A stretch of DNA of 64,000 nt from Terriglobia bacterium (GTDB lineage: Bacteria > Acidobacteriota > Terriglobia > Terriglobales > Acidobacteriaceae): assembly GCA_020072645.1 (NCBI GenBank), contig JAIQGK010000011.1, positions 1-64,000 on the forward strand, in the 5' to 3' direction. Position 1 is the stretch's first letter, and every line of letters starts with the position of its first letter. This document shows, in pieces, positions 9,942-53,647 of the stretch. The position numbers were made by a program, and so were the translations under genes. The notes below the pieces were generated by a model, which worked only from the letters and a program-made list of their open reading frames with translations, was not told the DNA's origin and did not search any database.

Positions 9942-10073
9942 TTTACCACAGAGGCCGCAGAGGAACACTGAGGAGTTTCTTCTTTGCTTCTGGCAGTGTT
10001 TGCTTCGCCGAGTTTTTCGGGTTTGAATCTCAGGATAAGACCTCCGTGATCCTCTGTGTCCTCTGTGGTTAAA
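9942..10073. repeat. Foldback repeat with CCACAGAGG ends
   Basis: The intergenic region between thiolase and dehydrogenase starts with TTTACCACAGAGG (9942-9954) and ends with the inverted CCTCTGTGGTTAAA (10060-10073). Inner copies of CAGAGG and CCTCTG repeat the motif. This is a roughly 130-bp palindromic element with no coding capacity, probably a dispersed genomic repeat. It sits within the operon and could form a stem in the transcript. Confidence 0.7.
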
Positions 10074-31160: not shown

Positions 31161-31240
31161 AACCTTACCGCTGATGACACTGATCAAACTGATTTTCACT
31201 GATCTGATCCAGTTCGATCAGTGTCATTAGTAGCAAGGTT
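31161..31240. repeat. 80-bp foldback repeat with ATGACACTGATC arms
   Basis: Left arm 31161-31185 and right arm 31216-31240 share AACCTT and ATGACACTGATC in inverted orientation, with a few mismatches between. It directly follows the ubiA stop and could act as a terminator-like hairpin. A related unit lies at 36136. Confidence 0.7.
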
Positions 31241-36135: not shown

Positions 36136-36220
36136 ACCTCACCGCTGATAACACTGATAACACTGATTTACACCGGATCAAGGGCGCCAGATCGGGTGAT
36201 CCGTTGATCGGGTGATCGCC
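36136..36220. repeat. Two adjoining dispersed repeats
   Basis: ACCGCTGATAACACTGATAA (from 36141) matches the arm of the foldback at 31161. AGATCGGGTGATCCGTTGAT (from 36190) matches the repeat after hyuB at 32858. The two families lie next to each other here. Confidence 0.55.
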
Positions 36221-46345: not shown

Positions 46346-46575
46346 CCGCAGATTTGTGCAGATGGGCGTAGATCAAAAAGCTTAGCCGCGAATTTCGCGA
46401 ATAAACGCGAATTAGGAAATTTTGTAATTGGGTAATTGAGTAATTTGAGATTCGCAAACCGCGAATGCGGAGAAAGAAATTGTGAGTCGTCTTTAAATTT
46501 GATTCGCGTCTATTCGCGTTGATTCGCGGCCCAATGATTTTTTGATCTGCGCCCATCTGCGAAGATCAGTGGCAA
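46343..46575. repeat. Large foldback repeat of the CCGCGAAT family
   Basis: Arms run from TAGCCGCAGATTTGTGCAGA (46343) and TAGCCGCGAATTTCGCGAAT to the mirrored GATTCGCGTTGATTCGCGGC (ending at about 46530) and TTTTGATCTGCGCCCATCTG (to about 46559). The arms pair over roughly 70 bases each, with mismatches. No coding. The same core appears at 50163 and as the terminal repeats around the GxxExxY gene at 51674. Confidence 0.8.
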
Positions 46576-50162: not shown

Positions 50163-50285
50163 GGCCGCAGATTTCGCAGATAAGATCAAAATCTTTGGCC
50201 GCGAATGAACGCAAATTAACACGAATCACACCAGAGTACGGAGAAATTTGCTTGAAGCGATTCGTGTCGATTCGCGGCTAAATTT
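50163..50285. repeat. Foldback repeat of the CCGCGAAT family
   Basis: GGCCGCGAATGAACGCAAAT (from 50198) is mirrored by GATTCGTGTCGATTCGCGGC (to 50278). The flank GCCGCAGATTTCGCAGAT recalls the copy at 46343. No gene inside. Confidence 0.75.
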
Positions 50286-50365: not shown

Positions 50366-51664
50366 CTACGCCCGGAATACTAAAGCCCCACCCACAACCG
50401 TCGCCATCACTTTACCCTGCATCTGACGGCCATCGAACGGCGAGTTTCTTGATTTTGAATGCGACTGCGCGACGTGGTACGTCCATTTCTTTGCGGGATC
50501 GAAGATGGTGACGTCTGCGCGGGCGCCCACGGCCAGTGTGCCGCGGCCCTGCAGGTTCATCACGCGTGCAGGATTAGCGGAGAGCAGTTCAACAATCCGC
50601 CGCAGCGGGACATTGTGACGGTAGTGCAAGACTGAGATGCACAGTCCGAGCGCAGTCTCGAGGCCAGTAATGCCGAAAGGCGCGCGATCAAATTCCTGGT
50701 TTTTTTCATGCGCGGAGTGCGGAGCATGGTCTGTGGCGACGCAGTCAACAGCGCCATCGGCAAGGCCGGCGAGAAGGGCATCGCGGTCTTCACGCGAGCG
50801 CAGAGGCGGATTCATTTTGTAATTGGTGTCGTACTGGCCTACTTCCTCATCGAGCAGCGTGAAGTGGTGCGGGGTGATCTCGCAGGTCACGCGCAGGTGG
50901 TCACGCTTGGCCTTGCGGACGGCGCGCAGAGCAGCGGCGGTGGAAAGATGGGCAACGTGGTAGCGGCCTTTGGTTTCTGCCGTGAGCCGGATGTCGCGTT
51001 CGACGATCGAGCTCTCGGCTTCGCCTGGCCAGCCGCGCAGGCCCAAGCGGAAAGCCGTTGGGCCTGCATTCATTGCGGAGCCTTCCGTCATGCGGCAATC
51101 TTCGGCGTGCTGGACCACAGGCATGTTGAGCGCGGATGCAGCGATCAGCGTCTGGCGCATGATCTTGTCGTCGAGGATGGGCTTGCCGTCGTCGCTCAGA
51201 GCCACGGCGCCAGCGCGCTTGAGCGCGGCGAAATCGGTAAGTTGTTCGCCGCGGCTGCCGACCGTCGCAGCGGCGACTGCAAAAACATTGACGTGCGCGC
51301 CGCGTGCAGGATCGAGCATCCAGCGAGTGATCTCCGGCGAGTCGTTCACAGGGCTTGTATTCGGCATGGTGCAGACAGAGGTGAATCCGCCGGCAGCGGC
51401 GGCCATGGTGCCGCTGGCAATGGTCTCTTTGTGCGATTGGCCGGGCTCGCGCAGATGGACATGAATATCGATAAAGCCGGGAGCGACGACGAGTCCACGC
51501 GCGTTGAAAGTGTCATCGGCCTTGCCGCGTAGTTTCCCGGCAGGCGCGACTTCAACCACGCGACCTCCTTTGAGCAGAAGATCGTACTTGCCCTCAAGAT
51601 GCTCAGCGGGGTCGATGAGAAGACCGTTGCGAATTGCGAGAGATCTTTTATTGTTCAAGTGCAA
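50366..51664 (-). CDS. pyrC: Dihydroorotase
   Basis: A 432-residue zinc enzyme closing carbamoyl-aspartate to dihydroorotate. Metal His68 and His70 lie in DIHVHLREPG; further ligands are in PVVQHAEDCR and VAHLST; the catalytic Asp is in CVATDHAPHS. It is a class I-type enzyme that usually associates with PyrB. It is downstream of pyrR, pyrB and the inserted GxxExxY gene, with a gap of only three bases after the latter's stop. The start appears to be a TTG (51664 or 51658), weaker than expected, perhaps altered by the insertion. Confidence 0.93.
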   Translation of the reverse strand: MHLNNKRSLAIRNGLLIDPAEHLEGKYDLLLKGGRVVEVAPAGKLRGKADDTFNARGLVVAPGFIDIHVHLREPGQSHKETIASGTMAAAAGGFTSVCTMPNTSPVNDSPEITRWMLDPARGAHVNVFAVAAATVGSRGEQLTDFAALKRAGAVALSDDGKPILDDKIMRQTLIAASALNMPVVQHAEDCRMTEGSAMNAGPTAFRLGLRGWPGEAESSIVERDIRLTAETKGRYHVAHLSTAAALRAVRKAKRDHLRVTCEITPHHFTLLDEEVGQYDTNYKMNPPLRSREDRDALLAGLADGAVDCVATDHAPHSAHEKNQEFDRAPFGITGLETALGLCISVLHYRHNVPLRRIVELLSANPARVMNLQGRGTLAVGARADVTIFDPAKKWTYHVAQSHSKSRNSPFDGRQMQGKVMATVVGGALVFRA

Positions 51665-51667
51665 AAC

Positions 51668-52099
51668 CTATTTAGCCGCGAATGCACGCGAATGAACACG
51701 AATTCCTTTCTTGCTATTCTCGAAAATGAAGCGCTTAAAGTGGGGTTTGGGACCGAAGTTGAGCAGAAGTCCTACTTCAATTTCCGTGGCGCGCAAATAA
51801 TTCAGGATTTGGGCCTCGTGTGATGGATCAAGTACACGGGCCGCTTTCAGTTCCAGTAGGACTGCATTATTTACCATGAGATCAGCCTTGTATTCACCGA
51901 TTACTCTGCCGTGAAACCAAATCGGCGTGGCAATTTGCCGCGCGACACTCAATCCTGCCTCGGTCAGTCCTATGTACAGCGCTTCTTCGTACACTGCTTC
52001 GAGAAATCCATACCCCAACTCGTTATACACCGAATAAAAAACACCGACGATTTGATGACACAAATCCCAATGTTTTCTTTCGTGTTCATTCGCGTTCAT
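51668..52099 (-). CDS. GxxExxY protein, PD-(D/E)XK-like nuclease fold
   Basis: About 143 residues from the ATG at 52099, which lies inside the inverted repeat; a GTG at 52120, overlapping the pyrB stop, is the alternative. The naming motif is Gly31-Phe-Leu-Glu34-Ala-Val-Tyr37 in LGYGFLEAVYEEAL. A PD-(D/E)XK-like core follows: Asp73 in EYKADLMV and Glu83-x-Lys85 in LLELKA, which would bind metal. Family members are of unknown function and often occur in many copies in environmental bacteria. Both termini are partly encoded by the repeats (MNANEHERK and RVHSRAFAAK), supporting a repeat-linked mobile unit. Nuclease activity is inferred, not known. Confidence 0.85.
   Translation of the reverse strand: MNANEHERKHWDLCHQIVGVFYSVYNELGYGFLEAVYEEALYIGLTEAGLSVARQIATPIWFHGRVIGEYKADLMVNNAVLLELKAARVLDPSHEAQILNYLRATEIEVGLLLNFGPKPHFKRFIFENSKKGIRVHSRAFAAK
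51674..51702. repeat. Terminal inverted repeat of the GxxExxY element (pyrC side)
   Basis: AGCCGCGAATGCACGCGAAT continuing through GAACACGAA. It is the mirror of 52079-52107 with one mismatch and encodes the last residues of the GxxExxY protein. Confidence 0.85.
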
Positions 52100-52107
52100 T
52101 CGCGGCT
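52079..52107. repeat. Terminal inverted repeat of the GxxExxY element (pyrB side)
   Basis: TTCGTGTTCATTCGCGTTCA continuing through TTCGCGGCT on the plus strand. It contains the likely ATG of the GxxExxY gene on the minus strand. Confidence 0.85.
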
Positions 52108-52116
52108 GATCCTGGT

Positions 52117-53028
52117 TCACGCGACCCCCAGACAGCTAGCCAGAATCGCCATCCTTACATACACGCCGTTGTGGACTTGTTCTTCAATAAGGGACTGGGC
52201 GCCGTCGGCGACTTCACTTTGAATTTCCATGCCGCGCACCATGGGGCCGGGATGCATCACGATAGCGTCACTTTTGGCCAGCTTCAAGCGTTCCGGGGTC
52301 AGTTGGTATTGGGCGATATAACTATGCACGTCAAGTTTAAGTCCGGCGAGGCGCTCTTTCTGCACGCGCAGCATCATGATCACGTCGGCTTTTCGTGCAG
52401 CTTCGTCGATGTGGCGGCTGACTTTCACGCCAGGAGCGAGCGAAGCTGCATAGTCGGGCAGCAATTCCGGCGGGCCGCAGAGAATGATCTGTGTGCCGAA
52501 TTTTGAGAGCAGGTGAACATTGGAGCGCACCACGCGGCTGTGCTGGATATCGCCCACCATGGTGATGCGCAGGCCTTTCAACGAGCGCTTGTGGCGCAGA
52601 ATTGTGTAGGCGTCCAGCAGGGCCTGGGAAGGATGCTCATGCATGCCGTCGCCGGCATTGATGATGGGAACTTTGAGGTTGCGCGCGAGCACGTGCGGCG
52701 CACCGGAAGCGGGATGGCGAACGACAATGCAATCCGAGCCGAGAGCCTGAAGAGTTTTTCCGGTATCAACCAGGGACTCGCCTTTTTCGATGCTGGAGGA
52801 AACTGCATTGATGATTGAAGTGTGGGTGCCAAGCAGTTTGGCGGCAAACTCGAATGAGACCCGGGTCCGCGTGGATGGTTCGTAGAAAAGAAGCGCAATG
52901 CGCTTGCCACGGAGCAAGGGCTGAGGCTTGCCAGACTGCATGCGCCGCGCCAGCTTGAGAAAAGAAGCGATTTCATCCGCCGAGAGGTGCTCGAGTTCGA
53001 GTAACGAGCGTGTGCGGGGCATGCTCAA
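52117..53028 (-). CDS. pyrB: Aspartate carbamoyltransferase catalytic subunit
   Basis: A 303-residue enzyme transferring carbamoyl phosphate to aspartate. The carbamoyl-phosphate loop is FYEPSTRTRVSFE (from residue 48); HPSQALLDAYT and MHPGPMVRGMEI shape the aspartate site. A regulatory PyrI is not seen. A TTG at 53028 overlaps the pyrR stop (TTGA) and suggests coupling; an ATG at 53022 is the alternative. The C-terminal codons run up to the GxxExxY element without disruption. Confidence 0.93.
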   Translation of the reverse strand: MSMPRTRSLLELEHLSADEIASFLKLARRMQSGKPQPLLRGKRIALLFYEPSTRTRVSFEFAAKLLGTHTSIINAVSSSIEKGESLVDTGKTLQALGSDCIVVRHPASGAPHVLARNLKVPIINAGDGMHEHPSQALLDAYTILRHKRSLKGLRITMVGDIQHSRVVRSNVHLLSKFGTQIILCGPPELLPDYAASLAPGVKVSRHIDEAARKADVIMMLRVQKERLAGLKLDVHSYIAQYQLTPERLKLAKSDAIVMHPGPMVRGMEIQSEVADGAQSLIEEQVHNGVYVRMAILASCLGVA

Positions 53029-53600
53029 GAAATGCGTTCCACCAGCAGGACCTGCTCTTCCTTATCAATTTCATTCAGCTTGACTTCAATAATTTCAGAA
53101 TCACTGGTTTGGACGGCGCGGCCGACGAAAGCAGCTTCAATCGGCAATTCGCGGTGTCCGCGATCGATAAGAACGCAGAGTTGCACGCGACGAGGGCGCC
53201 CGTGGTCAAAAAGCGCGTCCATGGCGGCTCGGACTGTGCGGCCGGTATAAAGCACGTCATCCAGCAGGATCACGTTTTTATCCACAATGTCAGTTCCCAG
53301 AGGCGTGGCTTTTTTGATCACCGGGCTGGTGCCGACGGTGGAAAGATCGTCGCGGTAGAGGGTGATATCCAGAGTGCCTACGGGCACAGGCGTCTTTTCA
53401 ATCTGCTGAATCAGGGCGGCCAGGCGGGTGGCCAGCGGAACGCCACGGCGCTTGATGCCAACAAGCACAAGGTTTTCCACGCCATTATTTTTTTCTACGA
53501 TCTGGTGGGCCAAACGGACGAGTGTCCGCTCAATTTCAGAGCCGGACATCAGTCGCCCTTTCACGTGCAGGTTGGGAAGTCGAGTGGAGGCAGGATTCAT
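53025..53600 (-). CDS. pyrR: PyrR pyrimidine regulator / uracil phosphoribosyltransferase
   Basis: About 191 residues. It binds UMP and pyr mRNA in well-studied relatives to attenuate transcription, and can have UPRTase activity. The PRPP loop is VILLDDVLYTGRTVRAAMDAL; GIKRRGVPLA and LYRDDLSTVG are typical. It leads pyrB, the GxxExxY gene and pyrC. The ATG at 53600 is preferred over upstream codons. No attenuator hairpin was identified upstream, since the next gene ends only about 48 bases away. Confidence 0.93.
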   Translation of the reverse strand: MNPASTRLPNLHVKGRLMSGSEIERTLVRLAHQIVEKNNGVENLVLVGIKRRGVPLATRLAALIQQIEKTPVPVGTLDITLYRDDLSTVGTSPVIKKATPLGTDIVDKNVILLDDVLYTGRTVRAAMDALFDHGRPRRVQLCVLIDRGHRELPIEAAFVGRAVQTSDSEIIEVKLNEIDKEEQVLLVERIS

Positions 53601-53647
53601 GTCACCGCATGATATCCGAAGGGAGCGCGCTGCGCCAAACGGCATTC

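Follow-up and report, generated by a model that had tools for sequence, protein, structure and literature searches.

A GxxExxY gene between inverted core arrays at a pyrB–pyrC junction in the Acidobacteriaceae: a probable small mobile element

The insert between pyrB and pyrC

The window, by which we mean the whole stretch of 64,000 nucleotides analysed here, comes from a Terriglobia bacterium of the family Acidobacteriaceae and carries a pyr operon with a gene of the GxxExxY family between pyrB and pyrC, the position assigned to it by an earlier reading of the sequence alone. The features of the locus are:

50366–51664, minus strand: pyrC, dihydroorotase; downstream neighbour, uninterrupted
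51668–52120, minus strand: GxxExxY gene (TIGR04256 / PF13366 PDDEXK_3); 150 amino acids from GTG
51674–51702, plus strand: downstream arm, cores CGCGAAT, CGCGAAT and CACGAAT; encodes the last residues
52079–52107, minus strand: upstream arm (in gene orientation), cores CGCGAAT, CGCGAAT and CACGAAa, ~10 bp apart; holds an ATG
52117–53028, minus strand: pyrB, aspartate carbamoyltransferase; upstream neighbour, uninterrupted
53025–53645, minus strand: pyrR-type phosphoribosyltransferase; upstream of pyrB, uninterrupted

The encoded protein matches its family over the full length and far above the cut-off (TIGR04256, E 1.2e-37, 128.8 bits against a cut-off of 35, model positions 2–115 of 116), and PF13366 is the sole Pfam match of the gene at E 0.001; both library entries supply a family name only. 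Since pyrB, pyrC and the pyrR-type gene are all intact, the insertion preserves the operon, as had been proposed. The GTG of the reading frame overlaps the pyrB stop by 4 nt, and the ATG at residue 8, within the right-hand arm, is in our view the likelier start. The further proposal that the repeats supply the start and the last codons stands for the window, from this ATG onward and for the residues before the stop, and fails as a rule for the family, a start codon being available in the left arm at 33 of 121 GxxExxY loci and the stop lying in or beyond the right arm at 44 of the 121.

The 29-bp inverted repeats with one mismatch on which the sequence-only reading rested were recovered (28 of 29 nt complementary, 376 nt between them). 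They are not simple terminal repeats: each arm consists of three 7-bp cores (CGCGAAT or CACGAAT) about one helical turn (~10 bp) apart, the third core of the downstream arm having its last base at 51703, and the general form of the core is CRCNRAK. A 27-nt arm pattern with up to three mismatches matched three times in the window (100 shuffles: 0.00), and its third match is one arm of a gene-less palindrome at 50199–50277. A chance repeat as the origin of the arms was rejected on these shuffles and on shifted controls at other loci. Beyond the reach of the sequence-only reading were the nature of the arms as arrays of short cores, the many gene-less copies, and the tracking of protein lineage by core sequence.

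Motif, fold and selection of the protein

The residues previously named as a PD-(D/E)XK core are D80, E90 and K92 in GTG-based numbering. In an alignment of 55 proteins (A1), comprising the window protein and those of 54 of 69 intact loci, with L078, L116 and L133 excluded, these residues are invariant together with G38, Y44, Y108 and F122. The AlphaFold model of the window protein is confident (mean pLDDT 91.6) and of mixed helix-strand type, and its best PDB matches are SSO0001, which we take to be Cas4, LHK-exonuclease, lambda exonuclease and Hjc, at modest query TM-scores (0.43–0.56 for the first seven matches); the homing enzyme I-Bth0305I also appears in the fold search, as a weak match (E 0.08). 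A PDB sequence search with the protein gave one match, at chance level. By motif and predicted model, the GxxExxY protein is filed as a putative member of the PD-(D/E)XK nuclease superfamily. In addition, dN/dS lies between 0.02 and 0.11 in nine close pairs, two more pairs being saturated, and the protein is therefore maintained.

Inverted arms across GxxExxY loci

Inverted arms were called where a local score of 16 or more was reached no farther than 250 bp from the domain. By this measure they are present at 66 of the 73 loci from the phylum (shifted control 5/285), at 59 of 80 loci drawn from named genomes across many phyla (shifted control 8/404) and at 68 of 78 further loci, a set counted without a shifted control. 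Overall, 193 of 231 GxxExxY loci bear an inverted pair, so that these genes are not generally repeat-free; together with the comparison of pyr junctions given below, this figure supports the earlier suggestion that the gene is the coding part of a small mobile unit. An inverted pair above the cut-off was not seen at 38 of the 231 loci, including 21 of the many-phyla set, which represents the best 80 of at least 583 confirmed matches found with the single motif LGxGFLE[KSA]VY and therefore leans to the window's clade. Loci with internal stops (L078, L116 and L133) were kept in these counts. The typed loci with arms bear the labels of 12 phyla, and the layout at the pyr junction is one case of a general GxxExxY architecture.

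The arms are not purely inverted, since a same-orientation comparison of the flanks also reached the cut-off at 21 of the 73 phylum loci. Left and right flanks of different loci, when paired, matched in 67 of 876 cases in the phylum set and in 193 of 960 in the many-phyla set, because the cores are common to several elements. Spacings between cores are mostly 8, 9 or 10 bp. The density of CRCNRAK is 3.5 per 100 nt in the arms (better strand) against a background of 0.27, a circular figure inasmuch as the form was derived from the arms of the 73- and 80-locus sets and then counted in those same arms; the independent test of the form is the number of arrays per genome, with the reversed pattern as control, to which we return below.

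With respect to orientation, both neighbours run with the gene at 68 of 108 loci scored and against it at 4. This bias fits the survival of copies that are read from a host operon, and a transcription-linked mechanism could be an alternative cause. Spread mainly by plasmids or phages was rejected, matches to the window protein (E 1e-5) being found in 8 of 72,556 plasmid records and in 0 of 50,697 phage records.

The same junctions in related genomes

A search detected pyrB in 59 of 60 genomes of the family, and the reading covered the 30 best loci. The gene is not a constant part of orthologous pyr operons: it stands at the pyrB–pyrC junction in two of these 30 loci, the window and L037, whose protein is 55% identical to the window copy and whose arms are of CACGGAT type. 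In about 10 of the 30, pyrC lies within 25 bp of pyrB or overlaps it. Judged by eye, the junction holds gene-less CACGGAG/CACAGAG palindromes in L054, L063 and L064, a GCAATTAGC-type palindrome in L036, which belongs to the same-genus genome of the sample, and single arms or remnants in L038, L048, L053, L056 and L060. An ordinary resident gene of the pyr operon is rejected by these junctions.

Empty sites were surveyed in a single, well-sampled genus within the phylum (41 genomes; flanks of nine loci searched, 20 regions fetched), the comparisons being between species (70–84% identity) rather than strains and the states of the sites again being judged by eye. Five congeners have an empty L121 site, and a sixth (L224) keeps an apparent element end (GGCGGGCAAAA). 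The L068 site looks empty in L216, L227 and L228, is occupied by a gene-less palindrome in L219, and retains partial arms in L229 and L233; a palindrome of different core is found at the L122 site in L220 and L221.

No target duplication was seen at the aligned empty sites of the sampled genus. For 19 arm pairs of the window's genome, the best flank identity was 0.44 against a mean maximum of 0.47 in shuffled pairings, a test of limited power because the element ends are not sharply defined. Long direct repeats were considered as target duplications and rejected as a general feature, since scores above 70 occur in only 4 of 125 loci. At these loci (L066, L158, L125 and L135) the long direct repeats flank the GxxExxY element with scores of 78–230, and in L066 a second copy of the apparent start of the downstream gene lies upstream of the element.

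The junctions also bear on the idea that nothing here is mobile in itself, in which case the arrays would serve the host as regulatory or nucleoid-protein sites and GxxExxY would be a nuclease or regulator of the host that acts on them. In this regard, strong purifying selection and the shared direction of the gene and its neighbours would be in keeping with a host function, as would, by their description, the paired multicopy sequences of Geobacter metallireducens, which were interpreted as IHF/HU-type regulator sites (PMC2700814). Empty sites and patchy presence between species argue against it, as do the arms that bound the gene itself at most loci examined, and we regard such a host role as quite improbable.

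Copies without the gene and array numbers per genome

Adjacent pairs of CRCNRAK cores number 25 in the window and 1 in the reversed window. Gene-less palindromes of the window include:

50199–50277, no strand assigned: MITE-like palindrome of the same core type as the GxxExxY insert; CGCAGAT pair just outside, at 50166–50181
46387–46528, no strand assigned: palindrome of the same core type as the GxxExxY insert; CGCAGAT-type cores outside on both sides (right: 46545–46571)
9947–10067, no strand assigned: palindrome of another core type, CACAGAG/CGCAGAG, from the core scan

Pairs of CGCTGAT/CACTGAT cores likewise occur without a GxxExxY gene at 31169–31184 and 36143–36167.

Four GxxExxY places were found in this genome by family search, namely the window copy, L002 between ispD- and ispF-like genes, L001 between an acyl-CoA dehydrogenase and a meaB-like gene (names taken from a reading of the translations), and the remnant L004. 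All four have inverted arms, of three core types (CGCGAAT, CGCGGAT and, at two places, CGCAAAG-like). When the window arm was used as query, the genome returned 35 places at E ≤10, 21 of them at E ≤0.06, and the 24 core clusters that were read comprise 17 inward-facing pairs without a gene, 6 single arms and 1 outward-facing pair. Some palindromes are nested or compound: a CGCGAAT palindrome lies just inside a CGCAGAT-type array in 8 of 18 left flanks, and on both sides in 3, as counted with a loose pattern and without a control. Examples are found at 46350–46571 and 50166–50277 of the window and in L016, L018, L023, L026 and L028.

Part of this picture would be explained by a homing-type parasite: the gene would sit in the loop of palindromes that are older and spread on their own, array sites would be cut by its protein, and the gene would be copied by recombination into further palindromes. 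The excess of gene-less palindromes over genes in this genome points in that direction, and so do the junctions that hold a palindrome in some species and the gene in others (by eye), the nesting of palindromes (loose pattern, without control) and the weak fold match to I-Bth0305I. Array numbers point the other way. Triple-core arrays were counted per genome in two sets, with the reversed pattern as control. In the first set (41 genomes chosen by hand, with genomes that have several GxxExxY copies over-represented), the median is 84 arrays (range 8 to 417) in the 22 with the gene and 1.5 in the 18 without it (maximum 5; total 37 against a control total of 15). In the second set (53 genomes, being all the not-yet-typed genomes of the 60-genome pyrB sample plus G050, which is in both sets), the median is 54 in the 29 genomes with the gene (total 2297, control 98) and 4.5 in the 24 without it (total 291, control 29), a difference with a Mann–Whitney p of 3e-7.

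Triple-core arrays usually number in the tens to hundreds where the gene is present and are few in most genomes without it, and exceptions exist. Fewer than 20 arrays accompany the gene in G015, G020, G026, G052 and G057 of the second set and in G151 and G157 of the first, and G003, G032 and G049 hold 92, 54 and 30 arrays with no GxxExxY gene found, through gene loss or another mover. In G050, five GxxExxY genes were discovered after its 307 arrays. A separate observation concerns G226, a draft genome of 6.6 Mb with 713 triple G-type arrays and a single detected GxxExxY gene. Because arrays are few in most genomes that lack the gene, palindromes seldom thrive without GxxExxY; this, apart from the three array-rich genomes named, argues against the homing-type parasite, as does the tracking of protein lineage by core type described in the next section, and we consider that explanation unlikely.

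The three array-rich genomes without a detected gene would also suit a passenger, in which case gene and arrays would both be moved by some other enzyme, for instance a Y1 (RAYT/TIRYT) transposase. A published account places Y1 transposases with inverted repeats in Acidobacteria (PMC3733652), and a Y1 match is present in 11 of 14 array-bearing genomes. A Y1 transposase as mover is weakened, however, by the 3 of 14 array-bearing genomes without a match and by the finding of facing core pairs on both sides at 0 of the 24 Y1 loci scanned (of 30), compared with 47 of 70 GxxExxY loci; moreover, a passenger would not need the co-inheritance of core and protein. With a test that covered Y1 transposases alone among transposase families, a passenger appears improbable to us. 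On contig 1 of G141, five Y1-transposase matches share identical scores, which may point to an element that was active recently.

Core type follows the protein lineage

A core type was assigned to loci that have arms and a minimum of three cores, first to 106 of 125 loci and then, by a wider typing that accepts A, G or T as seventh base at a 60% majority, to 164 of 193. On the tree of these 164 proteins, core base 7 changes 9 times, where shuffling gives a mean of 61.7. Base 5 of the core likewise tracks the protein: its observed value was reached by 6 of 5000 permutations in the T clade and by 0 of 5000 in the G clade, and in the G clade the tracking holds within one genus too; no tracking was seen for base 5 in the small Acidobacteriota T-clade sample, nor for bases 2 and 4 within clades. 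T- and G-type copies are found together in one genome (L001 vs L002 and L003), and core type therefore follows the protein, not the host.

The largest split in core type coincides with one substitution in the QxxxY motif, a single event on the tree. This raises the hypothesis of a single-residue specificity rule at residue 107 (N or H with T cores, S or T with G cores), which was perfect in the first 106 loci on the strength of one tree change and met with exceptions in the wider set: G cores accompany 77 of 79 S/T loci and T cores 74 of 85 N/H loci, the rest being A or G. The match between protein and core rests on few independent changes, and its exceptions are N with G cores and A cores. 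Residue 107 was readable in 29 of 33 single-gene genomes. Where it is S or T, G-ending arrays outnumber T-ending ones in 21 of 22 genomes, the remaining one having none; where it is N or H, T-ending arrays are the more numerous in 3 of 7 genomes and G-ending arrays in three, with one tie. In G084 and G119, which have N or H and predominantly G arrays, the arms of the gene itself are not of T type.

A model for the movement of GxxExxY elements

Observed in this work are the layout and its generality, the gene-less copies, the empty and re-occupied sites between species, the co-inheritance of core and protein, the purifying selection, the nuclease motif and the confident fold model; with these in hand, we put at roughly 85% the probability that the window GxxExxY gene and its arms form a small mobile element. 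We also lean, with more reserve, toward the GxxExxY nuclease as the mover of this element, acting on its own core arrays. DNA cleavage, core recognition and a role in movement are inferred for the protein, and we propose the following model. The minimal element would measure ~430 bp and comprise two arrays that face inward, with some three 7-bp cores (CRCNRAK) in each at a spacing of 8–10 bp, and one nuclease gene. Its protein would bind the core arrays of its own lineage and would nick or cut DNA at the array ends, or at a cruciform that the two arms could form. Once released or copied, the palindrome would be joined to a new site by host repair or recombination, and no target duplication would arise; as no such duplication was found, this joining step lacks an explanation. 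Copies that lose the gene would persist as short palindromes, possibly still moved in trans. Most surviving insertions would be those at gene boundaries, and most surviving intact genes would point the same way as the operon that transcribes them.

If this model is right, GxxExxY, a widespread orphan family, gains a concrete role and a candidate DNA substrate, and a common kind of dispersed palindrome would be explained. An element of ~430 bp with one gene of ~145 codons, moved by its own nuclease, would to our knowledge be among the smallest self-contained mobile elements and of unusual chemistry. We advance more tentatively, as one joint and somewhat doubtful proposal, that GxxExxY proteins are the mobility enzymes of an unrecognised, phylum-spanning class of transposable elements that is the source of the CACAGAG/CGCGGAT/CGCGAAT palindromes abundant in many bacterial genomes, that this class would pair a PD-(D/E)XK nuclease with helically phased core arrays instead of employing a DDE, HUH, serine or tyrosine transposase, and that four-helix proteins of the S23 type would run a parallel class with heptamer arrays.

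Comparison with known systems

In the portions of the open-access literature available to us, GxxExxY is mentioned in passing, without a link to repeats, flanking arrays or gene-less partners; the accessible parts of PMC10969869, PMC8934634 and PMC12085832 likewise do not tie it to repeats.

Free-standing PD-(D/E)XK homing endonucleases such as I-Bth0305I are small nuclease genes carried in an insert. The GxxExxY insert of the window differs from them in that no gene is interrupted and the insert bears its own inverted arrays. As for insertion into a site that is cut when empty, the trait of homing, the same sites are re-occupied between species, as judged by eye.

The intervening sequence of the Coxiella 23S rRNA (428 nt) resembles the GxxExxY insert as a palindromic insert with one small gene, and differs in protein fold and in a period of ~7 bp instead of 8–10 bp. 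Tandem heptamers ahead of the S23 gene, and an earlier suggestion of mobility, are found in the available text on Coxiella (PMC4990558), and the published S23 cases, as far as their sources were accessible, lie in rRNA. A four-helix S23 protein is absent from the insert, whose gene matches PF13366 only and gives a mixed helix-strand model. Four-helix S23/IVP genes (PF05635) occur in 46 of 99 genomes sampled, and 28 of 30 S23/IVP loci (L235–L264) have inverted arrays, mostly of ~7-bp units (shifted control 5/117); this similar layout suggests a general architecture served by unrelated proteins. The S23/IVP locus of the window's own genome, L255, has AGCAAATAGCAGCTGG-type arrays that resemble the L036 palindrome at pyrB–pyrC.

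The likeness to S23 genes raises the question of an RNA-level element, whose arms would pair in RNA and which would spread via RNA or cDNA. The direction bias of the neighbours and the missing target duplication are consistent with such a route. Selection for expression predicts the same bias, though, the predicted fold is of a type seen in DNA nucleases, one gene is all that fits in the element, which lacks a reverse transcriptase, and 0 of 12 loci gave an Rfam match at the gathering threshold, a result on which a known RNA family was also rejected. Spread at the RNA level is, in our judgement, highly improbable.

MITEs and insertion sequences are similar to the case described here in that short inverted-repeat derivatives outnumber the gene-bearing form, and the terminal inverted repeats and gene-less derivatives of classical IS and MITEs are both present; a DDE transposase match in the gene and a target duplication were not found. 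REP/RAYT pairs (REPtrons) and TIRtrons also combine a single small gene between inverted repeats with many gene-less palindromes. Their genes, according to the accessible part of the source, are HUH Y1 transposases (PMC3733652), whereas the GxxExxY insert holds a PD-(D/E)XK nuclease gene alone between arms built of 7-bp cores, and the repeat-flanked HUH Y1 transposase that marks REP/RAYT was not found, the window gene not being Y1. Because one defining feature of each was looked for and is missing, the element is not classed as a member of the IS, REP/RAYT or IVS groups. By analogy, the working of this probable GxxExxY mobile element would be closest to that of REP/RAYT pairs, or of MITEs and the element from which they derive.
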